DNA of 64,000 nt. It comes from Rhytidiadelphus loreus. Lineage: Eukaryota > Streptophyta > Bryopsida > Hypnales > Hylocomiaceae. Each line of letters opens with the position of its first letter. Positions within the stretch are counted from its first letter, which is position 1. The translations under genes were made by a program, and so were the position numbers. The DNA is taken from positions 44,373,348 through 44,437,347 of the forward strand of contig OX344764.1 in assembly GCA_947034895.1 (NCBI GenBank), in the 5' to 3' direction. The notes beneath the pieces were generated by a model, which was not told the origin of the DNA, ran no database searches, and saw only the letters and a list, made by a program, of their open reading frames with translations. Below are positions 37,481 through 64,000 of the stretch, one piece after another.

Positions 37481-38200
37481 GTCGCCCAAGACCCGAAGTC
37501 GCCTCTAGAAGCCTCCCAAAGGCCTAAATTTGCCAATTTCGGGCCTTTGGGAGGCCAATTCTTCCCATCTCCACCCGAAGTCGCCCCCTACCCGAGGTCG
37601 CCCTCACCCGCGTTCTCCTCCCAAAGAGGTCGCCCTCACCCGAAGTCGCCCCTAGAAGCCTCCCAAAGGCCCAAATTTGCCAATTTTGGGCCTTTGGGAG
37701 GCCAATTCTTCCCATCTCCACCCGAAGTCGCCCCCTACCCGAGGTCGCCCTACCCGAGGTCGCCCTCACCCGAAGTTGCCCCTAGAAGCCTCCCAATGGC
37801 CCAAATTTGCCAATTTGGGGCCTTCGGGAGGCCAATTCTTCCCATCTCCACCCGAAGTCGCCCCCTACCCGAGGTCGCCCTCACCCGAAGTTGCCCCTAG
37901 AAGCCTCCCAAAGGCCCAAATTTGCCAATTTTGGGCCTTTGGGAGGCCAATTCTTCCCATCTCCACCCGAAGTCGCCCCCTACCCGAGGTCGCCCTACCC
38001 GAGGTCACCCTCACCCGCGTTCTCCTCCCAAAGAGGTCGCCCTCACCTGAAGTTGCCCCTAGAAGCCTCCCAAAGGCCCAAAATTTCCAATTTTGGGCCT
38101 TTGGGAGGCCAATTCTTCCCATCTCCACCCGAAGTCGCCCCCCACCCGAGGTCGCCCTGACCCGCGTTCTCCTCGATGAGAGGTCGCCAAAGACTCAAAG
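37480..38200. repeat. GC-rich array with five repeated hairpins
   Basis: Units of about 120-160 bp alternate two parts. One is a GTCGCCCCCTACCCGAGGTC block; the other is a 45-46-bp inverted repeat with arms GCCTCCCAAAGGCCCAAA and TTTGGGCCTTTGGGAGGC. The inverted repeat occurs at about 37511, 37658, 37788, 37903 and 38064. The GTCGCCC motif is the same as in the hAT's terminal arrays. Long frames across it on both strands are artefacts of the GC-rich repetition. Confidence 0.9.
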
Positions 38201-38759
38201 TCACTTGAAGAACGTGTTCGATTGCTTTTTGTGGGTGTTGAAGGTAGAAATTGAGAGCTTCATTAGAGTAAATTATTTTTGTTTTAGTTTGCTAGGTGTA
38301 TTAGTGGACCTTCTTTGTTAGGTGAGCTAAATAAATGGACCTTGATGAGATCAGATTTTGTAGCTTAAACACCTAATCTCATTTATTAGAAATGAAAGTT
38401 CTTCTAAAAAATCTAGTTGCTTTGGATTCTCTATAGTACAACTTGAATTTGACAATATTTTGTTTGATCTATTAATTCGCTCTAGTATATTAATTTTATG
38501 ACAAGATGTCATCTTCCATTGAACACTCAATTTTTGCAAACATGCAATTTTTTTAAATATATATCAATGGTTCATTATCATTTATTCGATTGTGATTACA
38601 TGATATGAAATAAAATAAAATAAGAAAGATCATACATATCTATCCATCTATTTTTTTGTATTTTGAAATTCATTTGATAAATTATACACTTGTAGAATGA
38701 CTATTTGAGATTTGCTTAAATCCATAGGGAAAGTTTTTATTTAAATCTCTTTCCTCTAG

Positions 38760-45600: not shown

Positions 45601-46600
45601 AAACACCATATATAAATTCTTTACTAGTACTTTAACCCTAATCCTCTCCGCCTATGGCGGAAACCACCAAATCCTACACGATAGCCAAGAGGGATTCAGA
45701 GCAGAACGTAGTACATCACGACAACTACAACTCCTCATCGCTGCTCTAGAAGATGCAAGATTTACAAACCAAGACATCTAAATATTATATATAGACTTTA
45801 AAAACGCATTTGGATCCATAGATCATGCACGCCTCATGGCTATAATGTTAGATCTTGGATATCCTAAGACGCAGTAGCACTAATTGGAAATATTTACTCA
45901 TATTCATCTACAATATTCATTGGCGAGCATTTTGGTAGAACTAAACCAATACCTATCCAAAGAGGTACCATCCAAGGCGACACACTAAGCCCTTATCTCT
46001 TTCTTATTTTTCTAGAACCACTACTTAGATGGCTCCAAAGAGGTAATCATGGCTATAAATTTGGTACGTTCAAAATAACTATTAGCTCTGCAGCATATGC
46101 AGATGATTTAGCAGCAGCATCTTCTAAACTCCACTCACTTCAAATCCAACTTAATAAAATTGATAAATATTGTGAATGGTCTGGAATGGACTTGGGAGTA
46201 CCAAATGTGCAATTACAGGATGCCCAAATAAATCTAAAACAAATCCTGACACTTTCAAAACTCAAATACAGGCCATGAACATTAACTATAGAAACCAACC
46301 AATACCAATCCTTCACCAAAATGAACCATATACATACTTAGGTATACAATTAGTACCTTCACTAAAATGGAAATTACAAACACACATCACCACTAAAAAA
46401 TTAACAGATCAATGTATACAACTCACACACTGTCCAGCCACAATAAAACAAAAAATCAATATGGTCGACACTGTAATACGTGCCGGCATAGCTTACAGCT
46501 TTTATGCAGTCCCATATTCCCTACCAACAATTAAAAAATTAGACAAAAAATCATTGGAATTCAAAAAACCATATGTGGACTACCTAAATGTACTGCAAAC
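42631..46600 (+). pseudogene. LINE ORF2, endonuclease and reverse transcriptase part (broken)
   Basis: The start is uncertain; the frame is open from 42343 and the first ATG clear of ORF1 is 42631. A 2A-like tract lies at 43036-43062. An APE endonuclease follows at about 43690-44460: WNAAS, QETK (Glu at 43801), YMPSH, GNFN at 44179-44190 (usually GDFN) and SDH at 44431. RT follows from about 45390 with NKTPGPD, GFRAERS, an FKNAFGSIDH block and YADD at 46096-46107. Lesions are a frameshift near 44890-44935, TAA near 45080, TAA at 45779-45781, frameshifts near 45870 and 46190, and one in the A run near 46562. The copy is therefore dead. It would have provided target-primed reverse transcription. 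Confidence 0.85.
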
Positions 46601-46610
46601 CAGGGTTGAC
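46601..46610 (+). repeat. Left terminal inverted repeat of the 15.8-kb hAT
   Basis: CAGGGTTGAC, preceded by TSD CTGCAAAC. The next bases contain the palindrome-rich CGTCCGGACGTCC, also found in inverse form about 50 bp inside the right end. Confidence 0.95.
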
Positions 46611-47025
46611 AGGGCGTCCGGACGTCCAGAGTCCGCGGACGCTGACCCCAGGACGTCTTTTGACATGCCTGGCGGTAGATGGTGTCCGACCGCTGGACGG
46701 GCGGACGGCCGATTCTTCCGACGGAACAAGAGCAGACGGCCCGACGGAACAGGAGCGGACGGGCCGACGGTACAGGAGCGGACGCCCCGTCGGATCAGAA
46801 GCGGACGGCCCGACGGGGTAGGAGCGGACGGCCCGACGGAGTAGGAGCGGACGGCCCGACGGAATAGGGGCGGACTGGCGACCGGATGTCCGTCCGCCCG
46901 TCAGGGGCCCGTTTGCTTTGGACGGTGACCGTGCGATGTGACGGACGCCGATTTTCCACCGTTCGATCTTGCCGTCCGCCTGTGTGCCGTCCGATGCTCC
47001 CGTACGTGGATTCATGCCGTCCGAC
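46611..47025. repeat. Array A1: GCGGACGGC motifs, 23-bp period, left end and gene 1 promoter
   Basis: GCGGAC starts at 46755, 46778, 46801, 46824, 46847 and 46870, exactly 23 bp apart, in units like AGGAGCGGACGGCCCGACGG. Less regular GTCCG/CGGAC motifs flank the core on both sides, to about 47023. It serves as the left subterminal array of the transposon and lies directly upstream of the gene 1 TATA-like box. Confidence 0.95.
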
Positions 47026-47027
47026 TG

Positions 47028-47036
47028 CATAAATAG
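47028..47036 (+). promoter_or_regulatory. TATA-like box of gene 1
   Basis: GCATAAATAGCGG stands immediately after the last array motif (GCCGTCCGACTG) and about 170 bp before the gene 1 ATG. Confidence 0.5.
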
Positions 47037-47202
47037 CGGAGAGCACGGCTTATTTTGCCACAATCGTTTCCCTTGCGGAGTGGGTGATCTAGTGCCTAAG
47101 GCTCTGTGCGCCTCTTCTGTTTTGGTGTGCAAATGATTGTGATCGAACCCTAAATTGTTTCAAGTGTAAGTGCGAATCATTAATCATTTAAGCAAGCTTA
47201 CC

Positions 47203-48303
47203 ATGCCTCGCGATAACAAATCGAAGTCCAGTAAGAAGGGCAAATCCCAAGACATAAATTGGGATGATTGGGACAACCAAATGTGTGTAGCTGAACCGGG
47301 ATGGGAAGAAGAACCCAAAAAAACTTGGGACTGCACAACGTGCAAGAAGTACATCAAAATGACGCACTTCTCCAAAATATGGTCCAGAGAATGCGCAGAG
47401 GTGCAAGTTCGTCATTGGGAAGGACAAATTTCCACATGCCAAAGCAAACACTTTGTTCATCGATACGAGGAAGTAACACGTTCAGCTCAAATACGGGACT
47501 CCAAACCAAATTTAATGAACTATTCCAACATGAGCATGGTTTGGGCGGAGATTGTACTCCACAAAGATGTAGATTGGCGCACAATTTACGGAAAAGATGT
47601 TACCCACTTGAATCGCAGTGATGCGGTACTTTATACCAGTTGGACTGGGCCGAGCGATTGCATGCCAAAGTGGTCTAATCGAGGCCAGTTTGGATTTCCA
47701 CCGGTTGTATTGCCGGATGCAGAAGATGAATGGTCAGGTGATGATGATGAGAAAGACACTCCAACACCCGCGAGGATGGAAGAGAGGCACGAGCGTACAG
47801 AAGATCGGGAGGACATTCAATACCAACAAGAAATGCGAGAGGCAATGCAAAGAAGCCTAGAGGACCGTGGTCGACAATATGGCCATCATGGGGTGTACAG
47901 ACCCGATCGTGGTGCATATGGCTCGCAAGATACGCGAAGTATTTCACACTACGATAATGACCCTCAAGGGGGGTATCACAGCTCAAGGACAAGCCACGGA
48001 ACCACGCATCATTTTGAAGGTAACCAGGGAGGCTCCCAATACAACTTTACGTCTACTGGAGGTGGTTCTCATGAACCTCAAGGAGGCCCTTCTTATGGCA
48101 GTTCAACTCAAGGAGCATCTACTCACAATGATTCAATTCCTCCTCCAACTTTTGGAGGTCCATACCAAGCACATTATGGACAAGCAAGTGGGCAAAACAG
48201 ATATGGAGACGACTACTATGGAGGAGGACCATTTCTCAATGTTTATAGATCTAGTGGTACAGGCCCAAGCCAAAAAGATGACACCGAATCAGAATCTGAG
48301 TGA
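47203..48303 (+). CDS. Gene 1 of the hAT: 366-aa protein with novel domain and UIM-like motif
   Basis: ATG 47203 (MPRDNKSKSSKKGKSQ) was chosen over upstream non-ATG codons. Residues about 42-135 form a domain shared with gene 3: TCKKYxKMxHxxKxWxRE, a later CxxxHFxHR and NYSxxSMVxAE…VDW. Residues 211-221 (MREAMQRSLED) match the ubiquitin-interacting-motif core (hydrophobic-x-x-Ala-x-x-x-Ser-x-x-acidic). The C-terminal 130 residues are a Gly/Gln/Ser/Tyr-rich low-complexity tail ending in DDTESESE. No stops or frameshifts. An AATAAA lies at 48476. It converges on the kinase-like gene. The role is unknown; the UIM suggests it binds ubiquitin or ubiquitinated proteins. The shared domain has no family I recognise. 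Confidence 0.8.
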   Translation: MPRDNKSKSSKKGKSQDINWDDWDNQMCVAEPGWEEEPKKTWDCTTCKKYIKMTHFSKIWSRECAEVQVRHWEGQISTCQSKHFVHRYEEVTRSAQIRDSKPNLMNYSNMSMVWAEIVLHKDVDWRTIYGKDVTHLNRSDAVLYTSWTGPSDCMPKWSNRGQFGFPPVVLPDAEDEWSGDDDEKDTPTPARMEERHERTEDREDIQYQQEMREAMQRSLEDRGRQYGHHGVYRPDRGAYGSQDTRSISHYDNDPQGGYHSSRTSHGTTHHFEGNQGGSQYNFTSTGGGSHEPQGGPSYGSSTQGASTHNDSIPPPTFGGPYQAHYGQASGQNRYGDDYYGGGPFLNVYRSSGTGPSQKDDTESESE

Positions 48304-49335
48304 AGTAGATTGGACTATTGAACTATTGAACATTTGTAAGATTGTAGTTGTTGTCTCACAATACAATCAAGTGATTGTAAATTTGTAATCTCTTGCCACA
48401 TAATATAGAAAGTGACAAGCACGATACAAAGATGTTGGCTCTTAACAAATAGTATTTTCCTATTTGTAAATTATGAATAAAATATATTGTAATTAAGCCC
48501 TAAAGCCCTATGGATGTTTTTAGAAAAATGGATTTGTTCGGACCACTTCTACTTTATATACCGTAGAAAAACATCAACATCAATTTCTGGGGGGAATTTA
48601 AATAAAGTATGTTGTACATAACTTATTTGAGAGCATGGCGCCAAAATTTCAAAAATTTTGACTGCATGGATTGAAAGATATGGCATTCTAAGCATTGCAT
48701 TTGAAATTGAGAACGCCTTTGATCTCAGACAAAATTTGAGTAAAGAATTTTTTACAAATTAAAATCTGCAATTTCGGTTTAATTTACAAGACCACAACCC
48801 AATTATGCTTTGGAATTTTAATTTCATTTAGGATTCTAGAATAATGAACGGAAAATTGATTCAAGGAGTTTGGCACTTAAGCTTTTCCTAAACAAAATCA
48901 ACTTCGCAAAACAACATATTGTATAATTGTATTATTTCAATACAAATGGTGTTGTTACTTTGTTGCCCCCCAATGAAAATTTGGGGGATTCTCTTGCATG
49001 TGCCATGTACATTTACATGATAGATCATACAATTTAGCACACCACCTTGCCAACCTAGGTGGCTAGGTACCCAACAATCCAACATCAATGATACATCAAG
49101 AAGAAGAACTCCAAGTCTACATTTCTCATCCACCCAAAAAAAATGTTTTGTATTTAAATAGTTTGTGTTCCGAAAAATACAAAATGTTCAAAACGGAAAG
49201 CCAATTTCACATATATTGGCATACATTGATGGTGTATATATAGTCTATAGTTAGCACACATAGTAACGTACATCCTCACTGATACATTTATCGATTACTT
49301 CTATAATCTATAGTACTATGTAGCACACTCATATA
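48304..49335. other. Convergent intergenic region between genes 1 and 2
   Basis: It contains the gene 1 polyadenylation signal (AATAAA at 48476-48481). A stretch at about 48640-48700 ('gactgcatggattgaaagat') resembles the 3' part of the TTAA/CCCTAAAGG repeat family. No gene is supported; the 48888-49133 minus frame has no domain. Confidence 0.4.
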
Positions 49336-50820
49336 TTAATATGAGTGACGGAAGTGGTCATCTGGAATAGGCCAATTGTAAGAATTAGTAAATCGTTGGA
49401 TGATTTCGGAAAAACTTCCGCGCTCCGCAATCACTGAATTGCAAAAGTGATCCAAGTAGAGGTGAAATACCCTTGCCAAATCGTGGTGGCTAAACCTCGT
49501 ATGTCCTTCATTTTCACGATGAAGCGATGTGTAGGCCTCTGACATGCATAGTTTGTTGATCCGTTGAGCTATTCAACCAACGGCATATTCCTCCGATTTA
49601 CGTGACAAAGTTGGAATCATTTCCACATCCGCATCTTTGCGGTGCACGTATGCAATTGAAGGGTCCACCCACCACCTTCGGTTCAAAGCTGCATCCCGAT
49701 CTGCCGCGGATGTGAACGTATACAAAGACTTCATTGGTTCAGTACGAACCGTAGACATGCCCCAATCGCAAACTCCAATGTAAACACGTGATTCATCCTC
49801 AGGAAAGTGAAACATGATATTGTCAGGAGAAATATCATTGTGTAGATGACCAGCATTGTGGACCGCATTCATGATATGCACCAATGCCCATGCCAACTTG
49901 GTGCGCTTCTTTCTCCATCGACCAAGACGGAAAGCTTGAATCACCTCTTCGGGCGTTGGTCGTGAATAAGACAATCGAATGGCAATGTTATCTGGATAAT
50001 CATTATCGAGAATCAACATTTGCCGCAATGTACCACCATTCCACCAATATGCATACCCTTCATTGTTTGTTGCATGGACAGCGGCAAACCGAATAACTCC
50101 GTCATGTGGAATCCTCACTGCCATTGATTCGTTTTGGTGCTCCAACTTCGCAAGTTGAGGACGAATCCGTTGTTGATGAAATATCTTTGCAGCAAATTCC
50201 CAAAATGACAGAATCTCATGACATCCTTCAATTCGAACCCTGCGAATTGTTGCGTATCCGCCCTTCAAGATTTTGTCATCTTATAGAATCACCCTTGCTG
50301 TGTCTGGTAGTGCTATGAGATGCCGTTGTCCACGTTGCAATTCTACATCTCCTTCATCCGAAGTCCACCAACCCAATGACCCTCGCCGATTGCGTCTCTT
50401 TGCAAACGGAGCGCAACGACGAACAAACAAGTCAGCTTTGAGAATGACTTGTTCAAAGCTTTCATCACTTGTATGGTGTTCCCTCCCGTATTTTTCTAGG
50501 ATCACCTTCGCATTCCACAATGCGTCTTGCACCCTGTTCTTTAGAAATTGTTGGAAGCCCTTCTTCTCCATTTCATGAATTCATTTTGGAACGTTTAGAG
50601 CATCCGTGAACTTCTGTGTCATATCCATCTTGAATTTGTCTACACATTCCTCTTAGTATCTCACATATTTAGTGTCAAGAGACACAGTAGTTTCTGCCTC
50701 ATAAAACTTCACAATGTATTCAATCAAGAATGCTTTGCAAGCATTGGAAGGAAGTTCACGTGCTGAGTCAATATCGGGCACCACATTCTTCCCCTTCGCC
50801 GCTCTCTTCGGTCTCGGCAT
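49336..50820 (-). pseudogene. Gene 2 of the hAT: protein-kinase-like protein with four in-frame stops
   Basis: From ATG 50820 (MPRPKRAAKGKNVV) to TAA 49336 one frame spans 495 codons with no frameshift. It is cut by TAA 50653-50655, TGA 50581-50583, TAA 50281-50283 and TGA 49573-49575. The kinase fold begins near residue 186. Visible elements are the glycine-rich loop KGGYATIRRV, FAAKIF with the ATP-site Lys about 212, a hinge-like NGGTL, the catalytic loop HNDISPDNIM (Asp about 329, Asn about 334) and CDWGMS in place of DFG (Asp about 352). All key catalytic residues remain. The N-terminal 180 residues are unassigned. It is probably a decayed gene; both TGA stops could come from CGA by CpG deamination. 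Substrate unknown. Confidence 0.75.
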
Positions 50821-50838
50821 CGTAGAAAGTATTAATTT

Positions 50839-51806
50839 CACTAGAAGAAAAATACGTCCGGCACAACCAACTACTATGCAACTAGTGCCCTATGCAACTA
50901 GTGCCCTATGCAACTGTCATGCAACTAGTTTCCTCTCTATTTGCACCAAATCTAATGTAGTTGTTTTGTGTCATTGTTTTACAACATTCACTCATTGTTT
51001 TAGTTGCAAAGTAGTCATTCTGTAGTTGCAAAAAAAGACTAGGAAACAACTAGTGTCCTATGCAACTATTATGCAACTGTAAAATGACCATAGTTGTTTC
51101 CTAGTTGTACACTAGTTGTTTCTTAGTTGCACTCTAGTTGTTTCCTAGTTGCTTTCAAAGTTCATTCTCATTCGTGTTATATCAATTGACCCATATCAAT
51201 TGTAAAGAGTACCATTAGATTGAACATATAAGACTTGTAAGTTGTTATAGTCTTATGTAATGAATTCTTTTGATATAATTCTAAGATTTCTATAATTTGT
51301 GGGTTTCTACAATTTGTAGATTTTGTATATAAGAATTTAAAAAATAATTAAAATTCAAGAAATTTTATAATCTAGGAAATTGAATTTTGAAATCTAGGAA
51401 GAAGGTAGATCTGAAATTTTGAAATCTAGGAAGAGGGTAGATTTGAAATTTTGAAATCTAGAAAAAGGTAGATTTGAAATTCAAAAATCTAAGAAAAAGG
51501 TAGTTCTGAAATTCTAAAATCTAGAAAGGAGGTAGATCTGAAAATTTTAAATCTACAAATCATTGAGATTTATATTTTAAAATTTACAAATCTACAAGTT
51601 GCAAGCAAGTTGCAAACAAGTTGCACACAAGGATGAAGTTCTTTGTATGGTGTCGGATGACAAAAAACCTTGCAACTAGACTACAACTAATGCGACTTGT
51701 CCACTGCAACTACGGGCTCTACATTGTCACCTAGTTGCAAACGTCCTATGCAACTACAAAATGAGTTGCATATTGTAGTTGCAAAACCCCTCATTTTCTT
51801 CTAGTG
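50839..51806. mobile_element. 968-bp non-autonomous CACTA-like element in the kinase gene leader
   Basis: The ends CACTAGAAGAAAA (50839) and TTTTCTTCTAGTG (to 51806) are perfect 13-bp inverted repeats beginning CACTA. They are flanked by a 3-bp TTT duplication, as expected for CACTA elements, although TTT is weak evidence. Subterminal motifs TATGCAACTAGTG and CTAGTTGC recur near both ends. It lies 19 bp upstream of the kinase-like ATG and separates that gene from its array promoter. Confidence 0.8.
51370..51560. repeat. Tandem repeat of about 34 bp inside the CACTA-like element
   Basis: Five to six diverged units contain GAAATTTTGAAATCTAGGAA and AGGTAGATCT. They sit centrally between the subterminal motif clusters of the element. 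Confidence 0.8.
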
Positions 51807-51989
51807 TTTTTAGTCCCAATTTAATTCATAAAAAATTACAGTGCACCAAGTACACATAAACTGAAAAAAACGGGCAAAATATAGGCCCCCAAAACCCAAC
51901 TCCTACCTTCCCTACGAAAGGAGCCAATGGAGGATAAACCACCAAGCTCTTCGCTCTCTCTTGCAAAGCACAAGGGGGAAGGCAAAAGT

Positions 51990-52335
51990 GAGAGCGGACG
52001 GGCCGTCCGCACCGCCTTATATGAGGCGGACGGCCTCGAGGTCCGCACGAGCGGACGGACCCCAAAGCGGACGGCCAACGATCCACCTCGCTTCGGCCGT
52101 CCGATCAAACGGACGGATCGGCAGTCCGCTTCATCGGACGGCCAGAACAGACCGCCCAGCCGGACGTCGACTCCGTGACGCGGACGGCAGCGCCGAAATC
52201 GCGGATGGCGATCAGCAGGCGGACGACGGCCTGCAGCACGCGGACGGGGGCTCCGACGGGCGGACGGGGGCTCCAGCAAGCGGACGGCAGCGTGGGAACG
52301 GAGGACGGCGGGGTCCGCCTAAGCGGACGGGGGTG
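51990..52335. repeat. Array A2: GCGGACGGC motifs, gene 2 promoter
   Basis: It is irregular at its left, then roughly 18-21-bp spaced from about 52179 (GCGGACGGCAGCGCCGAAATC and similar). It shares GCCTGCAGCACGCGGACGG (52229-52247) with array A3 (53914-53932). It lies upstream of the minus-strand kinase-like gene. Confidence 0.9.
52013..52024 (-). promoter_or_regulatory. TATA-like box of gene 2
   Basis: On the minus strand: CCTCATATAAGGCGG, embedded in array A2 and pointing toward the kinase-like gene. The CACTA-like insertion now adds 968 bp between this box and the coding region. Confidence 0.5.
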
Positions 52336-53735
52336 GGATTTTGAAGTGCATCCCGCCCAAATTGATCATTACGGCCTTAGGGGTCTTTGAATCCTTGATG
52401 TCACCAGTTGGCTGGCCCTCCGGTTCAATTTCATTTTTAATGTGGTTCCTTTGTGCCAATGGCGTTGGGATTTCATTTGATCTAAAAATTAAAAAATAAA
52501 TAGAAAAAAGGATGTGTGAACTTAGGAATTATCTAAAAGATTCACATATTTTTGTATGTTGTTTTTACGTGCATGCATTGAGTTTATAATTTTTTCTTAT
52601 TTTCTAGGGATGGAATTGAATTTCCTATGATATAAATTTTTAAATAAAATAAAAAATTGAACACACGGTAATTTAATTCTACTTATTTGAACTTCGAGAA
52701 AAAACTTAAAGCTTCTCATTGTCCAAATGAAGCTACGAGGTTTGTTTCTTGTATGTCAACACCTCATAAAATGGTCATTTCAAAACCAAAGACAAAAATT
52801 CTTTTAAATGGTATTTTGGGTTTAGGGGATATTAGGGGCTTGCAAAGGTTTTGATACTCTAGCATGAAAATGTGTGGAAGTAGATTTCTAGAAGTCTCCC
52901 CCCCCCCCCTCCCTTTGAGTTGAATGAATTTATTGATTTCCAATGTATTGATTTCCATTCTTTAAAGAATCATAAGGTGCCAAAATATTAGCGCCAAAAA
53001 TATCAAGTTAAATTAATTCTAGTATGAAATTATAACTTGCTCAATCACTAGGGTGGGACAACGTGCTATGAAAATAGTGCATACACTTGTCTTCTTATAA
53101 CCTCACAAGTTCATGTGCACCCTACTAGGCATTCAAGCAAATTTTTTTAAGTCTAAACATCTACATGGTTAGGGAATGCAAGGACGAATGTTTCTTTCGT
53201 TGTGGATACTAAAAGGCCATGTTTTTTTTTCATATGTACAACACACTTTGAATGGCTTGGGCACTCAAACCCCTAAAAGATTTGATCCATTGGAAAATGA
53301 ATCAACTTTGAATATTACATGAATTGGACCTTGGGAATTGTTTGCAATTCAATAACTCCTTTCCATTTTGTTATTAGTTCTATTTGGAATTTTGGGGGGC
53401 ATATTTGTTTATCCAAAATCAAAGACAAAGGATTGTGATTGTCACCCCCATTTTGACAACGAAAGGCCTAAACCCTATACCCTAAACCCTAACAAGGGTT
53501 TGGAGGCATTGAATTAGTCAAAATACTACCTTTGAGTCGGTGGATTGCCTTGACATTTATGAAAACCAAGTCAATGCTTCGAACATTGAAACATTCCTTC
53601 ATCAATGAGCACCCGGTACTAGTACAACGTCTCTACATTCCCAAATGAAAGAATCCTATGCTTCTGAAAATCAGGAGAGGACTAGAGGACTCAAGAGGGT
53701 GAAAACAAGGCCCAAACTCCCCAAAGTGTGCTTGG
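52336..53735. other. Divergent intergenic region between genes 2 and 3
   Basis: AT-rich, with a C tract near 52900 and a short telomere-like stretch (ccctataccctaaaccctaac, about 53472). No gene is supported. It is bounded by arrays A2 and A3, so it separates two array-headed promoters that fire outward. Confidence 0.5.
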
Positions 53736-54120
53736 GCGGACCTCGGGGAGGGAAGGGCGGACGGCAGCGTCGGAAATGCGGACAGACCCGTCGGAATGGC
53801 GAACGGCAGCGTCGGAAATGCGGACGGATCCATCGGAATGGCGGACGGTAGCGTCAGAAATGCGGACGGACCCATCGGAATGGCGGACGGCAGCGTCGGA
53901 AATGCGGATGACAGCCTGCAGCACGCGGACGGCGGCTTCGACAGGCGGACGGCCCGTCGGAAATGCGGACGGAAGCGTCGGAATCGCGGACGGGGGGCAG
54001 CAGGCGGACGGCAACGTTGGATTTGGAGACGGATGGGCCGTCCGATTGAGCGGACGTTCGGGTCCGCTTCACATTGGTTGGGGGAGGTTCGGTGGCGGAC
54101 GATCTTAGGTTTGGTTTCGG
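53736..54120. repeat. Array A3: GCGGACGGC motifs, exact 21-bp period, gene 3 promoter
   Basis: GCGGAC or one-base variants start at 53757, 53778, 53799, 53820, 53841, 53862, 53883 and 53904, each exactly 21 bp apart. Alternating unit types (cagcgtcggaaat and acccatcggaatg) make a 42-bp higher-order repeat. It then becomes irregular up to the TATA-like box. Confidence 0.95.
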
Positions 54121-54124
54121 ACGG

Positions 54125-54133
54125 CTATAAGGG
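54125..54133 (+). promoter_or_regulatory. TATA-like box of gene 3
   Basis: CGGACGGCTATAAGGGC: the box directly abuts an array motif, about 240 bp before the gene 3 ATG. Confidence 0.5.
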
Positions 54134-54367
54134 CAGACGGCCTTCTTGTTTTTTCTCACTTCCCTCTCCTTCCTAGGACTCACAACCATGTTGGATGTGC
54201 TACTGTTGCTTCATTGTGCCAGTTGCTCCTACATGGTGGAGAGGTGGGGTCATTCATCTTTCATTATTGGTTCACATACAAACATTCATTGAAACTTGGG
54301 TGGATTGAAGACACATACTTTTGGTGACTATTTAAATTCAATTGGGGACAAGTTCAAGTTGACAACC

Positions 54368-57300
54368 ATGAGTGGTCAAGGCGTTGAAGGTAGTGGTGGG
54401 TTGACCGGCGGAGGTGACAATAGTAGGAGGCCTAAACCAAAGGGAACCGCCCATGAGCTCCACTATGAGATTTTAGATGATCCCAACATCAAAGCAGAGG
54501 GTGGTTGGGAAGCGGAGGAAGCGGAATATTGGTCCTCCAAAACGTGCAAGAAGTATGTGAAGATGTACCACATCGACAAGTTGTGGCCTAGGGAGGCCTA
54601 CATCATCCATACTCGTGGTTTTTGTTGCAAACCAGGGAATTGCAACAATGCGCACTTCATTCACCGAGCGCATGAAGTTTGGCGGGCCCTCTTTGGGGAT
54701 AAAGCAATGTCCAAGGGGTATATAAACTACAGCTTGGCTTCTATGGTGTATGCATAATTGATATTGGCACGCAAGGTGGATTGGAGCACGTTTTCAACGA
54801 CAGCGAACGCTCCACGTGTGCTTGAATGTAATCGGAAAGATATTCCCGATTTGTACAATCCACAAGCAGGGCCAAGTGAGGCATTTAAATCCAAAAGAAA
54901 GGTCAAACCAATGACAATGACTATGACCAAGGACGTGGAGGTCACAAGTTCGGCAATGCAATTGGCTTCAACACAAAACCGTACGGCAATACAAGATTTC
55001 AAAGGCGAGCATGTGGAGGGAGACATATTTTTAACTCCTCCAATGGATTTGATATACACACCAAATGGAACAACAATTGTGGAGCATGTGGCCCCATCCG
55101 CACCACATGAACGTCATGATGATGTCATTGAGGGAGAAGTTGCTAATGCGGGAATTGCCATTCAGAATCTTATAGACAACAATGCTTTAAATCATTTGGC
55201 AAGTACTTCGAAGCAAAGTTTGCCGAAGACACCGAGCTCGACATTGAACCTAGGAGTTGAGGTGCATCCTTCACCTCATCATGGAGAACAATCGGATGGC
55301 GTGCTGCCAAATGAGACCATTCTTGGCGGATTTATTGATTCCAAGTATCCACATTTGTCATCATTGAGGACATCAAAATGGCAAATTGTTCGTCGGATGC
55401 CCTCGGTTGCATTATTAGAATCTTTGTGTAAAGGTTCACATTTGTGGCGGTCACACGAAGAACATTTAAAGAACATGGAGCACACCAACGAGGATGGCAC
55501 GAGTAACGGAGGCGCGGAAACCCAAGATGAGCCTTCCGAGAGTCAATGGGCTGATTTTGTTTTGACCGCATCAAAATTGGCAGTTACGGCTCAATTTGTA
55601 GCAGAAGTCGCTCCAAGGCTGCAAGAAGTTGCAACGGATTTTTCCAAATTAGCGCCTGAATTGTTGAGTGGTGCCTTGGACTTCGTGAAGTTCAGCCAAT
55701 CTATGACACCATTTTTCGACAAGCGTGTTACAGATTTGAAGGGTTTGAGTGAATACCAAGAGGAGATCAAGAAGTATAAGGGTATAGATGTTGAGAATCT
55801 CAAGTTGGCGGCGGATGCTTCGAAATTGAAAGAGAAGCTAGAGACATTGGAGGCTCAATCAGATCGTCGCCATAATACATTGCTTTTCCAAAGGAAGTTT
55901 ATTGAAGACTTGGAGTACGAAATTGTAGCGTTGAAGAAGAAAATCCGAGAAGGTGAGGTGGTTGTTGAGAAGGGAAAGGAGAAAGTGGAGGACAGACTAG
56001 ATGGCATTGAGGAAAACAACAATCCGGATTTGTTGTATTTGACCCCCATCAGTAATACTAATTTTACATTCCATGATGCTTCCATGCAAACGGAAAGCAA
56101 TGAGGTCAAAGAATTGAAGCAAAAATTGAACGAGGTCACCGAAGAAAACACGCGTTTGGAGGCCGAGTTGAAACGATTGCAACGGATAGTGCAATTGGAT
56201 GAATGTATGTCGAAGGGCACTTTGGACTCTCGATGGTTGGCATGGGTGCAAAAACTCGAAGACAAACCGTCTGTAGTATCACAAGCAATGAAAGGGCTAC
56301 TCAAATTGGCAATGAAGTCGGATGAAGAATGCGATAGCGTGGAGTCCTCTCTTTGGCGTTTGAAGAAGATGTTTGCCTTTGTGCCAACGGGGTCCACCGA
56401 AATCACATGTTGGGGAGACATGGATGCAATATTCGAGCGTTTGAACCACACAAAGAAGGAAGAGGTGGCCTCCATTAATTGGGCCTTGGAACTAGAAGAA
56501 GGTTGGGTCCCTTATCCCACGCTTTCGGCACACATCAAGAAAAATGACAAGACAATGGTGCATGCTTGTGATCCTTCGGCCTTAATATTGAAGGGTCATT
56601 GTAGCCTTTGTCGAGTTCATTTTGGGCCCGAGGGAGCCCTCACCATGGGCCAATGTCCCCACACTTTCCACGTCACATGCATCGTGAGAGCATCCCTTAT
56701 TCGTTCGGTGTGCCCCGAGTGTCGTTCTCCCTTGCCTCCTAGGTTCTACGAAATGCTCGGGATCTTGGAAGCTATGCCCCCCGGCCATGAATACAATCGA
56801 TGGACCCTTCCGTTAGACCAAGCGCCATTCAAATTTCAAAATTATGCGCATTGGGGAAAAAGTCTAACGTGGGATTCGGTAAATTCTACACATGGGCTAT
56901 ACGAATCATCGGAGGTGCCGATAGATTCCTTGGTGTGGATGACCCACGATCGAGAGGTGGAGTTGCGAGCTAGAGGTATTGCCAACGAGGAGGATCGAGA
57001 AGTGTTTTGTCGTAGTATGGGGGGCCATTGGAGCATGCAACACCACAAATTCTTTCGATTTCCCGAAAAGGAAGTGAAGAAAGGACTAGATGGCAATTGG
57101 ATAGAGGTGGAGTCTACACAAGAGTTTAATAAGCAATACGGGGATTACAATCACACTTTGCTAGGGAGGGCCCTCTTTTTATCAAAATTGGAGGAAGCTG
57201 CACAAGTTCGTGCCTTTGTGGAACTAGATGGGCAATCAAGCACAGAAAATTCAATGGTGGAGGTGGCGGGGGCATTTGATAAGAGGATGGGCGAAATCAT

Positions 57301-57655
57301 AATGCATTGGAGGGCATTTTTAGTGGGGGGAGAAGAACCAAAGTGGTTTTCCATGAAAAATGATGATGACGTGGTCAATTTTTTGGTAGATAAAGTGGAT
57401 GCTGCTTTGAGAGCTTTGAAGGCAGAAGACATGGATTTGACTCCAAAACGGAAGAATAAACGGAAGATTGAAGACGAGGATGACTACTCTCCGGATACGA
57501 AACGACACTTTTCCGTAGTAGACATGGAAGCTGCGTCCAGGGGGCCTATGAGTGAGGGCAGTCTTGGTCCTCAAACACGCCGTGCAAATGCAAGACTGAA
57601 GAATAAAGAGGGTTCGTTGTGTCTTTCTGAGGGAGGTAGCAATGATAATATATAG
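54368..57655 (+). CDS. Gene 3 of the hAT: about 1,095-aa coiled-coil RING-H2 protein (one in-frame stop)
   Basis: ATG 54368 (MSGQGVEGSGGLTGGG) opens a frame that is continuous to TAG 57655 apart from one TAA at 54755-54757. Residues about 55-140 repeat the novel domain of gene 1 (TCKKYVKMYHIDKLW, then CNNAHFIHR). The TAA falls where gene 1 has Glu in SMVWAE, so it is a point lesion (GAA to TAA) or the site of a shorter product. Residues about 460-610 are coiled coil. Residues 745-784 form a RING-H2 finger: C-x2-C-x14-C-x-H-x2-H-x2-C-x11-C-x2-C (CSLC … CPHTFHVTC … CPEC), typical of E3 ubiquitin ligases. The C-terminus has basic KRKNKRK-type signals. Likely role: a ubiquitin ligase, substrate unknown. 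Confidence 0.8.
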
Positions 57656-57998
57656 GATAGTTACACCTTGTTTGTATTTCGATATGACATTATGGTCTTA
57701 TGGAATGTTGTTAATTTTGAATCTCGAGAAGATTCAATACTATTAATTCACAACACTCATAGTATGCTATGAGTTGCTTTTCATTAATATAAAAATATGT
57801 GGGTTACTCAAATGTTTTTGAATTTACTCTCCTAAGTTTTTGATATTTTATGCGATACTTTTTTGTCAAGTATGATTTTGGACATGCCTATCTCTCAACA
57901 TAATTTTATCTCATTAATTTCTGTATTCCTAAAATATCACGCATCTCTAAACTAAGTCCCTAAATTAAAACTTGTAGAATTAGTGAATTAGTCAAAAT
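57656..57998. other. 3' flank of gene 3
   Basis: AT-rich spacer with a possible polyadenylation region near 57780 (attaatataaaaat). It ends where array A4 begins. Confidence 0.4.
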
Positions 57999-58255
57999 CC
58001 ACCAGCCGTCCGCTAGTCCGCCACCCGCCTACAATTTCGACGCTGCCGTCCGCCTGTCGGAGCTCGCCATCCGTGATTCCATCGCTGCCGTCCGCTTGTC
58101 GCAGCTCGCCGTCCGCGATTCCGTCGCTGCCGTCCGCCTGTCGCAGCTCGCCGTCCGCAATTCCGTCGTTGCCGTCCGCTGTCCGCGATTCTGTCGTTGC
58201 CGTCCGCCTGTCGCAGGTCGCCGTCCGCGATTCCGTCGCTGCCGTCCGCATTTTT
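57999..58255. repeat. Array A4: GCCGTCCGC motifs, 21-bp period, transposase promoter
   Basis: GCCGTCCGC or close variants start at 58045, 58066, 58087, 58108, 58129, 58150 and 58171, exactly 21 bp apart, then continue after a small deletion. Alternating units (CTGTCGCAGCTC and GATTCCGTCGCT) again make a 42-bp higher-order repeat. The motif orientation is inverse to that in A3. Confidence 0.95.
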
Positions 58256-58333
58256 GTTCTCGGAACCGTTGGGGCTTTAGAAATGTTTTAGTTTTTGCTG
58301 CTCAACGGTCATGAAGAATGGGCCTGATCTGAA

Positions 58334-58343
58334 ATCTATAAGT
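58334..58343 (+). promoter_or_regulatory. Possible TATA-like box of the transposase gene
   Basis: TCTATAAGTTC lies about 80 bp after array A4 and about 235 bp before the transposase ATG. It is weaker than the boxes of genes 1-3. Confidence 0.35.
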
Positions 58344-58576
58344 TCTTAGAATTTCAGACTAACAAGCACTCCTGAGAAACTGAACGCTAAGATTTCCAAG
58401 GGCTAGGAGCTGCAATTTATTTTGTGTCCCTTGCTTGGTAATGCATAGTTCAGTGGACAGGGGGGCTTTGGTTTCCAAGGCTTCATTCACACATTGTTTC
58501 TAATATTTTTTACAAATCTTATCCAACGGTTACATTTTTAATTTGAATCCAATTTACGGAATTGGAGGTGATCACT

Positions 58577-61500
58577 ATGAGCAAGGATTGGTCTTCTTGG
58601 TATGGCTTCCCGGAGGTTGGTAAAGTGCAATGCCGGTATTGCAACTTGGTGTTTGCCAAGAAAGTAAGCCGGTTGTTTAGCCACTTAGGATACCAAGGCA
58701 CATCGGGGGCTCGTGACAAAAGAATTAGCCTTTGCGCAAAAATGACATCTGAAGTTCGATCCAAATTTTTGGGTTGCCAAGGGGCGATCCCACGAAGATC
58801 GTCTCTAAACAATGTGGATGGCAGTGGCACACCTATGGCTATGCGGGAATGCGATAATTCAAATGGAAGAAACATGGCGCGGTCTACACATTCCGACTCA
58901 TGCACTGCACCGGAGAATTTGGATCCATTGTCTTCTGAAGTGAACCTCAGTACACAAAGATCAAGTGAGCGTGGTACTCCGCAGGGATCAAGTAGTAGGC
59001 CTCTGATTAGTCAGAAGCAAAGTAGTCTGGTGAATGGATTTGAAGAAGCAAATAAACACAAGTTGAATGCGGTGTGGGCCAATTTCTTTTATGCTGCAAA
59101 CATACCATTTGCTGTTGCGAGGAACCCAGCATTCAAAGAAGCGGTGAAGCGAACTGCCGAGTTTCAACGGCCTTATATCCCACCGTCTTATCACGACTTA
59201 CGCCATAAATTGCTTGACCAAGCAAAGGCAGACATTGAGGTCAATCTCCGAAAGCGGACCGAACACAGCATTAGGAAGTTTGGAGCAACATTGTCTATTG
59301 ATGGATGGACGGCGGTTATGAATCGGCCGTTGATAAATACCATGCTCGTGTCTTCTGCAGGTGAGCAATTCTTGGGAGCGGTGGATACGACAGGGCACGA
59401 AAAAAATGCAACATACTTGGCTGGCATACTTGAGAGCTTCATAGAACAAGTAGGCCCCAACAATGTGGTGCAGGTGAGTACAGATAATGTGTCAGTGAAC
59501 CCTGCAGTATGGAATTTGATATCTAGTAAATATCCCCACATTTTTTTTCAAGGTTGTGTGGTGCACGCCCTCAATTTGTTGCTGAAAAATTGGAGGAATG
59601 AACAATGGATTGAAGAGGTCGTGGAAAATGCCCGTATCGTGGTGAAATTCTTCAAGAAGCGACACATGCCACTTACAATATTTCGGAAGTACTCACCGGA
59701 ATATAATTTGTTGATGGCGGTGGAAACAAGGTTTGCCTCTAATTACAACATGATTGGGCGCATGTTGAAGGTCAATGGGAAGTTGCAACAAACAGTGACG
59801 GACCCGCAATGGGATGAATACGTAAGGAAGTTTGGGTGGAATTCCAAATCCCGCAATGAATGTCGGATGGTGAAGAAGATAATTTTGAGCGAGCATTTTT
59901 GGCGCCGTTGTCAGAATTTCAAGGACTTGTCGGCTCCCGTTGTAAATGGTCTACGTGACTTGGATGCAAAGAGACCATGCATAGGCAAGGTGCTACACAT
60001 AATGAGGAAATTAAAGAAACATGTCCTCTCTTTAGATAAACCGCCTTTTCGTTTATCCTCAGACCTTGCCATTCCACTAGTGCAACCGTATTATGCCCGA
60101 CGGGAATTGGTGGAGACCGATCTACATTATGCAGGAGCTTTGTTGAACCCCTACCTTTTTGAAGACCAAGAGCTAGCCGATGACCAAGATGCAATGGATG
60201 CATGCAAGCGTGTTCTAATGAAAATTTGCAAACAAGGGGAGTACGCCTCAGTCGTGAAAGAATTTGTAGCCTTCCGCCACAGGGAACCTCCATTTCACAA
60301 CATGTTGAACCCGGACGAGCAACAATTGTCGGCGCACGCTTGGTGGGATTTTGAAGGTGCGTGTGGGAAGTTCATTGCTCCAATTGCTAAGAGGATTTTG
60401 GCCCAACCGGTATCTTCGTCTTCATGTGAACAAAATTGGAGTAGCTATTCATTTGTTCACAACAAATTTCGAAACAAGTTGAAGCCACAGAGAGCCCAAG
60501 ATTTGGTGTATGTGTACACCAATTCCAAAGTCCTTTGTGCATCAAAGGAAAATGATGAGAAGAAGTGGTACACCAAGAATGTGGAGTCGGAAGATTCTAT
60601 GTCGGAGGACGAGCGTGATGAAGATGGTGAAGATGGTGAAGATGGTGATCCTCTATTCGATGACGAAGATGCTATGAACGATGACATCACCAATTTGGAT
60701 GATGAGCCGCTCCGGAGCACAAATCGGAACAATGAAGACGAGGATAGAAATGCGGAAGACATTTACAATTTTCCATTGGATGAGGACAATTGTGAATATG
60801 ATGAAGGTGGCCCTTCTATAGCTAAATTTGTAGATGGAACCGGGTTGTTGACTAGCGAAAAGATTCTAGCCAATACGGAAGACACTCATGCGCAAATAGT
60901 GGAGGAAAATGAGGCACTGTTTGTCAATGATTGCATCCCCCAAACAGATGAAGTGATTCCAATTCTCGAGAGTCTACCCATGGCAATGGCACTTGTAGAA
61001 GAAAATCCCGAAGTCAATGATATGGGAGAGTGTGGGGTGAAGTCTGACATGAATGTGGATAATACAAGTGTTGAATGTGTGGAAGTACCATCGAATGTAG
61101 ATGCACGTGTGACGGAGTTTGATCGTCCAATGCTAGTTCACAACGTCGAAGACCAGAAGCAAATTGTGCAAGATCTCCAATTACGACCACGTAGCGATCG
61201 TCCATCAGCACTACATACAAGAGGTAGTACAACTTTGAATGGTCCCGAAGGCTCAAGATTTGGGAAACAAGTTGAACAACATTTGACCAGTCCGACCGGA
61301 ATGCACCTTCGTGTCAATCCAGATCCATTCAATTCATCATGGAGCGATGATGAGAAGGACGAGACATTGGCATCAATGTTTGGTCAACGTTTTGGCCAAA
61401 CAAAACGTGATTCATTCAAATTGTCTGATGGAACATTGCAGCAGATGATTGGAGCAAAGATACCCAATCAAGGAGGATCGCAAGTAAGACCACCAATGGT

Positions 61501-61873
61501 GAAAGAATCCCACAAAGCTCGAAATAAAAGATTAATGGAGGCTTTTGCAATTTTCCCATCAAAGAGACAAAGTCTTGGTAAAACCCCTCTTGATGTATGT
61601 CAACCAATTTCTGCAAGGAAATTAAAACCGATTCATGGCCTTAAAGAAGGCATAGGAAAGTCTATACTAAGAGCCAAACAAGAGCAGAGGAAGGGCCGAC
61701 CAACGAGGTCAGTTGCATCCAAGCAAGTACAAGGAGGGGCAATTATACAATCTTTATCAGAGGATATGGAAAAGTCAGACAACGATGAAGATGAAGATTC
61801 GGGATGGGATACTAGAGGTCATAGTAGCGGGGCAGAGGTGAAAGGAGATAGTAATTATCAGCCTTCGAGATGA
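58577..61873 (+). CDS. Gene 4 of the hAT: transposase, 1,098 aa
   Basis: ATG 58577 (MSKDWSSWYGFPEVGK) to TGA 61873, uninterrupted. An N-terminal BED-type zinc finger uses C19-x2-C22, H36 and C53 and would bind the element's DNA. The DUF659/RNase-H-like core follows with SIDGWT (D242), VSTDN (D303), CVVHALNLLLKN and ETRFAS. The hAT C-terminal dimerisation region has SSSSCEQNWSSYSF (E618) and RNKLKPQRAQDLVYVY. D242, D303 and E618 fit the DDE catalytic triad. Beyond it lie about 400 extra residues, first strongly acidic (EDERDEDGEDGEDGD) then basic near the end, which typical hAT transposases of about 650-750 residues lack. It would cut and paste elements with CAGGGTTGAC ends. Confidence 0.93.
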   Translation: MSKDWSSWYGFPEVGKVQCRYCNLVFAKKVSRLFSHLGYQGTSGARDKRISLCAKMTSEVRSKFLGCQGAIPRRSSLNNVDGSGTPMAMRECDNSNGRNMARSTHSDSCTAPENLDPLSSEVNLSTQRSSERGTPQGSSSRPLISQKQSSLVNGFEEANKHKLNAVWANFFYAANIPFAVARNPAFKEAVKRTAEFQRPYIPPSYHDLRHKLLDQAKADIEVNLRKRTEHSIRKFGATLSIDGWTAVMNRPLINTMLVSSAGEQFLGAVDTTGHEKNATYLAGILESFIEQVGPNNVVQVSTDNVSVNPAVWNLISSKYPHIFFQGCVVHALNLLLKNWRNEQWIEEVVENARIVVKFFKKRHMPLTIFRKYSPEYNLLMAVETRFASNYNMIGRMLKVNGKLQQTVTDPQWDEYVRKFGWNSKSRNECRMVKKIILSEHFWRRCQNFKDLSAPVVNGLRDLDAKRPCIGKVLHIMRKLKKHVLSLDKPPFRLSSDLAIPLVQPYYARRELVETDLHYAGALLNPYLFEDQELADDQDAMDACKRVLMKICKQGEYASVVKEFVAFRHREPPFHNMLNPDEQQLSAHAWWDFEGACGKFIAPIAKRILAQPVSSSSCEQNWSSYSFVHNKFRNKLKPQRAQDLVYVYTNSKVLCASKENDEKKWYTKNVESEDSMSEDERDEDGEDGEDGDPLFDDEDAMNDDITNLDDEPLRSTNRNNEDEDRNAEDIYNFPLDEDNCEYDEGGPSIAKFVDGTGLLTSEKILANTEDTHAQIVEENEALFVNDCIPQTDEVIPILESLPMAMALVEENPEVNDMGECGVKSDMNVDNTSVECVEVPSNVDARVTEFDRPMLVHNVEDQKQIVQDLQLRPRSDRPSALHTRGSTTLNGPEGSRFGKQVEQHLTSPTGMHLRVNPDPFNSSWSDDEKDETLASMFGQRFGQTKRDSFKLSDGTLQQMIGAKIPNQGGSQVRPPMVKESHKARNKRLMEAFAIFPSKRQSLGKTPLDVCQPISARKLKPIHGLKEGIGKSILRAKQEQRKGRPTRSVASKQVQGGAIIQSLSEDMEKSDNDEDEDSGWDTRGHSSGAEVKGDSNYQPSR

Positions 61874-62137
61874 AAGGGATGTATAATTCATTATTCAAGT
61901 GTTCATGATGAATTGTTACATGGAAGCATGTAACGGCAATTTATTTTTTGAACCTATCATTGTAATGCACATGAACTTAATGATGTTCAAAATATCATCA
62001 AGGTTTTTTGTTTTTTCAATAGTCAAGCACTATTGACTGAAATTACATTGTGTGCATCATTTTCTGGATCAAGTATTACCTACAAAAATGTAATAGTATA
62101 ATGCATCAAATTTGGCTTCATGTACTGTTGTTTTATG
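61874..62137. other. 3' flank of the transposase gene
   Basis: AT-rich non-coding sequence holding the transcript end. No clear AATAAA is present. It leads into the right terminal array. Confidence 0.4.
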
Positions 62138-62385
62138 GATGTCCGCCCGTCCCCGCTGTCCGCCGTCCGCGGCTTCCGTCCACCGTCTGCGCCTTTCGTC
62201 CGCCGTCCGCGCGGACATGTCCGTCGTCCGCCCGTCCGCCCGTCGATCCGTCTGCCGACTGCGCCGACCGCCCATCCGCGTCGTCCGAACGGCCGACGAA
62301 TGCCGTCCACATCGTCCGCGCGTCCCGAAAATGTGGACGTCCGGACATCCGGACGTCCGAAAAATGGACGTGATTTTGCCCCGGA
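62138..62385. repeat. Array A5: right subterminal GTCCGC/GCGGAC array
   Basis: Dense but irregular GTCCGCCCGTCC, CCGTCCGC and GTCCG motifs run to within about 20 bp of the right end, finishing with CCGGACATCCGGACGTCC. It mirrors the left terminal array A1. Confidence 0.92.
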
Positions 62386-62396
62386 CGTTGAAATTC

Positions 62397-62406
62397 GTCA
62401 ACCCTG
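62397..62406 (-). repeat. Right terminal inverted repeat of the 15.8-kb hAT
   Basis: GTCAACCCTG, the exact inverse of the left end, followed by TSD CTGCAAAC at 62407-62414. Confidence 0.95.
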
Positions 62407-64000
62407 CTGCAAACGTAATAGCGAAACTTCCACACGAACTCTTTGGGCTAGAAGCCTTCTCCCTTAAAAATGCTTATCTACGTTGTATTAGCGAACAACT
62501 TCGTAATGCACTCAATGATCCAGGAAGATTAGGTACAATATATAAAGGACTCATACACCACATTTTGGCCAAATATGGTGGTTCAGAAAACATTCCAAGA
62601 ATCACACAACATGACTGTGTCAGATCACCTACAATACAAACTCTATTTCTACTCAAGAAAGAGGCAGGAATCCACCTCAAGAACATAATAGAAAGCTTCC
62701 AACTACATGCCACAGAACTTGAACAAGAATGGATGACACAATCAAATATCACTCTACCACACCAAAATTACAAACTCTCCCTTAAACTTTTACACAAACT
62801 CCTACTACATAACATACACAAAATAAAACATATCACACTCCCGAATGGCATAAATTTAATGTCACTTGAAGACTTTACAAAATACTATCATACTCCAACG
62901 AACATTGAAAAACGAGCTTTGAATATAGCAGAACAACTTTTCTGCTACCCAAGGTGTACACTCGAATGTTCAACACCTTGCCTAAGACATCCAAAAATAC
63001 GAACTCTCAAAGCACAATACATATCAGATAACCATGATTTAACACCCATAGCTCCACACAACCCCTTGTACCCTTTACCAACTCAACCTTCACAACAACA
63101 AACTCCTCCCTTACATATTCCAAATAATCCACTTAAATTTCCCATATGGAAAATACTAGATCATAAAACTAGGGTAACAAAAGACAAATACAAAATTTCA
63201 AAAAAATATACTACATATTTATGTCAATGGGCACCCCATAATAACATAACATATACTAAATGGTTACCACAAAGAGACCTTTTTCCTTTTAACCATCATG
63301 CGGTAATTGAACACAACACCTCTCTACTAACACAATATTATACACTACAACAACACAAGCATTATACAAACATTATTAGGGCAAATTTTGACCACGAACA
63401 AACTAGAGATGTAAGATTCATTCCACCTCCAACAATCATTCCACACACATACATCTCCACTATCGAATGCAACCCTGAAAAAGACATACTAACAAATACA
63501 CACACTCTCTTAACACAAAACGAACTAACACACATATACTTAGATACTGGCAAACACCTGATTACGATTCCCACCACTAGGTTGCAATGGCTATGGAAAC
63601 AATATCACACATCCATCTATAATACACATGGATTGGTTCCACCTACACAATCATTCGAAACTGAAATTATATGGTTATACCAACAATATAAATACAAAAA
63701 ATCCAAAAAAAATCCACTACACACACAACAACACAGTCTTCCACAAAGTATACTAGACTCACTAATAACAACATTCAACATATCCCATTCATACTTTTCT
63801 TCACCCATTACATGCTCTACACAGGTCACACAATTCTACTCTCCATACGAAAGGGATAAAATATTTGGATCACTTGGCAAAGCCTTTGACTACAAATGGA
63901 AAGGCATAGGATTTGCACACCCACACAATGAAGAAACAGCCCAACAAGCACTACATTGGTCTAGACTAGCAGCCAAACATGATCAAAACACTATAACTAT
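62407..64000 (+). pseudogene. LINE ORF2, C-terminal part, open to the window edge
   Basis: After the 15.8 kb hAT and its TSD the LINE frame resumes (…ANVIAKLPHELFGLEAFSL…) and stays open for about 530 codons with no stop. It first completes the region after the RT. A cysteine cluster follows at about 62943-62990 (C-x3-C-x3-C-x3-C), which could bind zinc. A conserved-looking block then ends the window (…FYSPYERDKIFGSLGKAF… and …GIGFAHPHNEETAQ…). This last block faintly recalls the PCIF1-type RNA methyltransferase fold; that is a guess from motif shape. No RNase H signature is seen before the edge. Confidence 0.75.

Follow-up and report, generated by a model that had tools for sequence, protein, structure and literature searches.

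A multi-copy hAT transposon with kinase-like and RING-H2 genes in the moss Rhytidiadelphus loreus

The element and its genes

We analysed a 64,000-nucleotide stretch of the Rhytidiadelphus loreus genome (hereafter the window), which is part of a 75-Mb contig in a 407-Mb assembly and contains, at positions 46601-62406, a hAT transposon inserted in a decayed long interspersed nuclear element (LINE). An original prediction, made from the sequence of the window, had placed the transposon there by its perfect 10-bp terminal inverted repeats (TIRs) and perfect 8-bp target-site duplication (TSD) and had described three further genes beside the transposase. The placement holds, as the transposase has DUF659 and hAT dimerisation domains and other genomic copies agree with it. 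All four genes are present (Table 1); gene 1 and the transposase gene are open, but the kinase-like and the RING-H2 gene of the window copy are interrupted by stops. Excision had also been expected to restore the reading frame of the host LINE, and the joined flanks do form a LINE-like frame that is open over 550 codons, but a shift of frame in the LINE occurs already upstream of the element.

Table 1 Features of the hAT element in the window
Feature	Position	Strand	Remarks
Left TSD CTGCAAAC	46593..46600		8 bp, perfect
Left TIR CAGGGTTGAC	46601..46610	+	10 bp; identical or with one altered base in other copies
Array 1, left subterminal	46701..46979		7 GCGGACGG motifs, partly as a 23-bp unit; 223 bp before gene 1
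Gene 1, 366 aa	47203..48303	+	open frame; N-terminal domain common with gene 3; UIM-like core
Gene 2, protein-kinase-like, 494 codons	49336..50820	-	four in-frame stops in window copy
Nested insert, CACTA-type, non-autonomous	50839..51806		968 bp; 13-bp CACTAGAAGAAAA ends; absent from 10/10 other copies
Array 2	51994..52330		10 GCGGACGG motifs; 1174 bp 5' of kinase ATG in window
Array 3	53757..54011		10 GCGGACGG motifs; period 21 bp; 356 bp before gene 3
Gene 3, RING-H2 coiled-coil protein, 1095 codons	54368..57655	+	N-terminal domain like that of gene 1; a single in-frame stop (54755-54757)
Array 4	58006..58249		10 GCGGACGG motifs, minus orientation; period 21 bp; 327 bp before transposase
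Gene 4, hAT transposase, 1098 aa	58577..61873	+	DUF659 and Dimer_Tnp_hAT, weak BED; open frame
Array 5, right subterminal	62163..62239		3 GCGGACGG motifs, minus orientation
Right TIR GTCAACCCTG	62397..62406	-	reverse complement of left TIR CAGGGTTGAC
Right TSD CTGCAAAC	62407..62414		8 bp, perfect

The left TIR and its reverse complement each occur once in the window. TIRs and TSD by themselves are suggestive evidence, because the window holds three perfect 10-bp inverted pairs with a flanking perfect 8-bp repeat and 20 simulated windows hold three such pairs altogether; we regard the boundaries as settled because other genomic copies agree on them. The TSD matches nTnnnnAn, which we take to be the pattern of Ac-like hATs, and the TIRs, at 10 bp, are short, as in hATs, for which the part of PMC12506042 that was available gives 5-27 bp.

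The transposase frame runs from stop to stop over 1108 codons (58547-61870, ATG at 58577). Pfam matched it to DUF659 with an E value of 2.1e-34 and to the hAT dimerisation domain PF05699 with an E value of 7e-9 (35.8 bits against a cut-off of 21.4). In an alignment of 18 rows, D242, D303, C327, H330, E618 and W621 are invariant; presumably these are the hAT catalytic D, D and E plus the CxxH and W. The reading frames scanned with Pfam contained no MULE transposase domain, and no DUF3435 tyrosine recombinase was among the Pfam matches of the six frames scanned.

The protein of gene 2 has a kinase fold with the catalytic K, HxD..N and DxG, and the gene is full length and without introns when compared with its relatives; against NCBIfam it gave nothing but weak matches (lanthionine synthetases and others) far under the cut-offs. 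Gene 3, also full length and intronless in comparison with its relatives, matched zf-RING_2 at an E value of 9.9e-5, under the Pfam cut-off, and the ligands C754, C757, C772, H774, H777, C780, C791 and C794 are invariant in the 12 rows of its alignment; by these zinc ligands the family is of the RING type and a putative E3. The predicted structure of the family was poor (mean pLDDT 44.2) and was left unused. The N-terminal domain of gene 1 recurs in gene 3 (34% over 157 amino acids, E value 3e-19) and in four relatives of gene 3 (29-39%), which bears out the suggestion that the cargo genes are in part paralogous. The description of gene 1 as similar to a ubiquitin-interacting motif (UIM) protein was overstated: gene 1 has a core pattern at residue 211 alone, which also arose in 0.4% of 2000 shuffles, and Pfam reported no UIM at E<=1.

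With both strands counted, the element contains the 8-mer GCGGACGG 40 times; the remaining 48 kb of the window lack it. The motifs form five clusters, one at each end of the element and one before each of genes 2, 3 and 4; the left-end cluster also precedes gene 1. Most of the clusters are 200-400 bp from a gene start. Motif spacing is 20-21 bp or a multiple of this over the greater part of arrays 3 and 4, and some of the left-end motifs are 23 bp apart. The subterminal repeats at both ends are candidate binding sites of the transposase. A separate promoter for each gene and a promoter architecture common to cargo and transposase had been predicted, and an array at a conserved place before all four genes agrees with this, but the 300 bp preceding each of the four ATGs contain no TATAWA site; the relaxed TATAW occurs solely at -242 of gene 3 and -240 of gene 4, and no TATA-like site is common to all four.

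Copies in the host genome

We searched the host genome with each of the four genes and scored the best 40 candidates of each search (of 420 for the transposase, 414 for gene 3, 283 for gene 1 and 281 for the kinase). Together the searches gave at least 85 loci; the transposase DNA gave at least 43 matches, 34 of them over the whole query, with 96-98% identity when the window itself is excluded. Two or more genes were found at no fewer than 52 loci among the matches listed, and in 52/52 the order was gene 1, gene 2, gene 3, transposase. The remaining 33 loci have one gene each among the matches listed and are uninformative, because each search gives its best 40 candidates. One of the 85 loci lies on a small contig (C421) and its matches equal those at 61.5 Mb of C2, of which it may be a duplicate. 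The constant order speaks against genes 1-3 occurring at fixed non-mobile loci and standing in the window by chance, an outcome that the original prediction had itself named as one that would refute it.

Ten copies (c1-c10), corresponding to the ten best other transposase matches, were read. The kinase gene, gene 3 and the transposase gene are present in all ten and gene 1 is whole in nine; in c7 the last 272 of its 1101 bases match, and unrelated sequence precedes them. Copies with a transposase only, which the original prediction had also named as refuting it, are not the norm: there were none among the ten. Perfect TSDs, all different from one another, flank seven copies (c1 CCGATAGA, c2 TCCGCAGC, c3 CCTTGCTA, c4 ACGGTGGA, c5 ACTTGGAC, c6 GCGGAAAC, c10 TCAAATGG), and these show that the family moves by cut and paste. 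The TIRs are those of the window, except for one changed base each in the left TIR of c6 and the right TIR of c4. As for the imperfect ends, the TSD of c9 has three mismatches, the right end of c8 is damaged and the left end of c7 was not located. Gene identity among the copies is 96.7-98.7%.

The predicted element size of 15.8 kb was not upheld, since 968 bp of it are a nested insert, whose flanks fit a TTT duplication and which sits 18 bp upstream of the kinase start, between the kinase gene and its array. Seven copies without large inserts (c2-c5 and c8-c10, the ends of c4 and c8 being approximate) measure ~14.5-14.9 kb, and c1 and c6 exceed 18 kb. A tally of the nine other copies besides c7 shows the five array sites and their strand pattern again; each cluster has 2-19 motifs, and c1 has six clusters owing to an insert. 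In 10/10 other copies 203 bp separate the kinase ATG from the nearest motif, and in the window it is the nested insert that pushes the array away. For gene 1 the distance is 223 bp in eight of nine other copies and 286 bp in one, and in the other copies it is 227-395 bp for gene 3 and 326-348 bp for the transposase.

With the window included, frames without stops or frameshifts are seen for gene 1 in 6/10 well-covered copies and for the kinase in 7/11. The kinase frame is open in seven of the ten other copies, and its start codon is altered in one (c2), as is that of gene 3 in c5. Most stops differ between copies, although the window and c10 have one kinase stop in common and a few further stops are each common to two copies; because most of them differ, an ancestor with four intact genes is probable. 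An alternative genetic code as the source of the in-frame stops was rejected, as the 1108-codon transposase frame is open under the standard code and kinase frames are open in other copies. By its frames, the window copy could make the gene 1 protein and the transposase, and not the full kinase or RING protein. Being partly decayed, it would depend on other copies for the last two functions.

C>T or G>A makes up 76-82% of the changes among all 11 copies, an excess that would be the mark of cytosine methylation and deamination, as for a methylated transposon. Because this transition bias lowers all ratios of amino-acid-changing to silent changes (N/S), the contrast between shared and private changes alone counts. 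For the kinase, shared changes are less often amino-acid-changing than private ones (0.24 vs 1.36, p 0.0013), which points to constraint; for the three cargo genes pooled, a pooling chosen afterwards, p is 0.004.

Two of the copies, c6 and c7 (L019-L022 and L032-L033), have an internal insert and a transposase stop in common, and their right outer flanks differ. This suggests that a broken copy moved in trans, by a transposase from elsewhere.

Relatives and comparable systems

Protein searches were made with the transposase, gene 3 and kinase as queries, that of gene 3 being scored for the 7999 candidates with most words in common. The transposase has 76 relatives, of which the 38 closest (ena, lgn, jgi and ncbi records) are at 35-72% and named plants at 25-32%; gene 3 has 11, at 35-52%; and the kinase has 62, at 27-76%, the whole-length ones reaching 67%. 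The kinase family is found in the moss Ceratodon purpureus as two clusters, one at 50% and one at 42%, and its proteins there (P0111, P0124) are named hypothetical. The cluster at 42% has 126 member sequences with a representative named hypothetical, so genes annotated there as host may be transposon cargo. One kinase relative is filed under a Bacilli metagenome assembly and is probably a contamination. A scan of viral_contigs gave no relatives of gene 3, the transposase or the kinase, and one of genome_contigs gave none of gene 3 or the kinase.

Three pairs of relatives come from metagenome contigs of equal length and source: transposase P0003 with gene 3 protein P0079 (17649, ena), transposase P0010 with gene 3 protein P0082 (8444, jgi) and transposase P0009 with kinase P0125 (27639, ena). 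Compared with the window, these transposases are at 55, 51 and 41%, the RING proteins at 52 and 35%, and the kinase at 54%. The transposase tree was built from 42 of the 76 matches, with the window row cut to 700 amino acids, and was midpoint-rooted, with a long-branch warning for P0076. In it, P0003, P0010, P0009 and the window span the three branches of a clade of 22 rows (support 100/99). This distribution places the association of cargo and transposase before the clade, if contigs of equal length are one contig. The gene 3 tree sets the 8444 protein far from those of the window and of 17649; the kinase tree included 50 of the 62 matches (>330 amino acids among P0090-P0148).

hAT elements are textbook one-gene cut-and-paste transposons; Ac-like TIRs begin with CAGGG, and Ac carries one transposase gene. 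The element resembles Ac/Ds and other plant hATs in its 8-bp TSD, hAT dimerisation domain, short TIRs with the CAGGG start and clustered short subterminal repeats. It differs in having four genes, in a length of ~14.5-14.9 kb against the 4.6 kb given for Ac in the part of the literature available, and in its arrays, which stand before every gene too. VANDAL elements, which are MULEs, are likewise multi-gene plant DNA transposons (VANA, VANB and VANC) with a short motif in their non-coding parts, in one orientation and with a number that varies by tandem repeats; according to the available part of PMC5735166, VANC binds this motif and removes methylation, and repeats of changing number lie in introns and upstream of VANA. 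Here, too, the motif lies in non-coding parts of the element, varies in number and is rare elsewhere in the window. The likeness is, however, in architecture only, since the motif differs and the transposase is of the hAT type.

Pack-type transposons of plants are DNA transposons with non-transposase genes, for the most part gene fragments and no transposase, unlike the element here with its full-length intronless genes and its transposase. The word hAT was not found in the part of a 2026 review (PMC13317346) that was available. ToxhAT/ToxTA of wheat-pathogenic fungi is also a DNA transposon of ~14 kb with other genes and was first called a hAT, but the available text of PMC12506042 describes a 2-bp TA TSD and 74-bp TIRs and places it as a likely non-autonomous Tc1/mariner; it is single-copy, whereas the element here has hAT ends, a hAT transposase and many copies. 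Starships are eukaryotic giant transposons with cargo genes as well; they are fungal and use a DUF3435 tyrosine recombinase (PMC12506042, same part), unlike the element here, where none was seen in the frames scanned. Judged by titles and the openings of abstracts, with subscription journals little covered, no hAT with kinase and RING cargo was found in the literature.

Origin and possible role of the gene set

Many copies in this one genome have the element's ends, TSDs of their own and the same gene content and order, with arrays at the ends and 5' of each gene. We therefore consider it quite probable that this is a cut-and-paste hAT family with a standing set of four genes, in which a kinase gene on the opposite strand accompanies gene 1, the RING-H2 gene and the transposase gene, with arrays before each gene as a putative shared control. 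The original prediction of a cargo-bearing lineage, as opposed to random capture, is supported by the multi-gene loci in one order and by the metagenome relatives that tie the transposase to the cargo.

Several observations weigh against this conclusion. Variants without cargo or without transposase may exist among matches poorer than the ten best. The gene 3 frame is stop-free in 2/11 copies (c6 and c7), both with an insert inside the gene, and the transposase is open in 4/11. The C>T/G>A bias distorts N/S; the shared and private changes of gene 3 (0.30 vs 0.58, p 0.09) give a doubtful contrast, and those of gene 1 and the transposase none (p 1.0 each), constraint being no stronger on shared than on private changes. 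The linkage in other species is shown indirectly, by equal length of contigs; the matches listed include no relative of the kinase on 17649 or 8444, and on 27639 none of gene 3.

It could be argued that, in this species, a hAT captured three host genes in a single event before multiplying, with the genes as passengers without a role; the closeness of the copies and the stops of gene 3 in 9/11 of them agree with such a single capture. We think this quite improbable, because relatives of gene 3 and the kinase lie on contigs equal in length to those of three far more distant transposases, the kinase appears to be under constraint, the element's own arrays precede each gene, and gene 3 and the kinase are full length and intronless beside their relatives. 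Another view of the arrays is that the internal ones are old subterminal ends of separate hATs, one gene each, that were later fused. The internal arrays are indeed alike and oriented + + and then -, as ends would be, with gene 3 between a + and a - array. However, in the window no TIR with up to two mismatches adjoins any internal array (the nearest, at 54361-54370 and 54396-54405, are at least 350 bp from array 3), and the copies have one fused structure in common, with arrays at nearly fixed distances from the start codons. A composite of this kind is rather unlikely as an account of the present element, though fusion of nested elements could be the origin of the present unit.

The arrays might also be an unstable GC-rich minisatellite without a regulatory role, as tandem repeats slip easily and the repeat number per cluster ranges so widely between copies. 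We regard this as unlikely: in the nine copies tallied the arrays stand at likely functional places, the two ends and 5' of four genes, the nearest motif keeps its distance from the kinase start in all ten copies and from the gene 1 start in eight of nine, and the window has no such motif outside the element.

If the four genes form a standing set under shared control, the transposase or another protein encoded by the element would bind the end arrays for transposition. These are a natural place for the transposase to bind, because the Ac transposase binds the AAACGG repeats of Ac (PMC3260210, in the part available). The same protein, or a cargo protein, might act at the promoter arrays and either switch all four genes jointly or prevent their silencing; one protein for ends and promoters is the simplest proposal, since the same arrays precede every gene. 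This would be an element-wide control like that of VANDAL and VANC on a hAT backbone, by analogy of architecture. The cargo would likely phosphorylate and ubiquitinate host or element proteins, given the kinase fold with its catalytic motifs and the RING ligands of gene 3. We treat gene 1 and the RING gene as a ubiquitin-linked pair because of their common domain, and this pair and the kinase might, with less confidence, favour spread through an effect on host silencing or on the transposase itself.

It is thus possible, though we put it forward tentatively and would not be surprised if it failed, that a hAT lineage evolved its own control system independently of VANDAL and VANC. In such a system, an element protein on the GCGGACGG arrays of both ends and all four promoters would switch transposition, the kinase and the ubiquitin-linked pair together and shield them from silencing, while the kinase and RING proteins would rewire the host or tune the transposase. 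If a hAT lineage has retained further genes, among them a protein kinase and a RING-H2 gene, while its transposases diverged down to 41% identity and its RING proteins down to 35%, plant DNA transposons would be shown to be capable of maintaining accessory regulators, as viruses are. The arrays make shared regulation of ends and promoters testable with one protein and one motif.

Some further observations were made in the window. The right flank contains an open LINE frame (62097-63998) for which a sequence search of the PDB gave no match; within it, at 63636-63953 (+), Pfam reported a PCIF1_WW match above the cut-off (E value 4e-12), so that a domain of the cap-methyltransferase PCIF1 lies in or beside the host LINE near the end of the window. 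ARAGORN found no tRNA in its scan, and an Rfam scan found one snoRNA. At 37478-38318 (+), overlapping open frames contain repeated proline-rich units such as SHLHPKSPPTRGRP.

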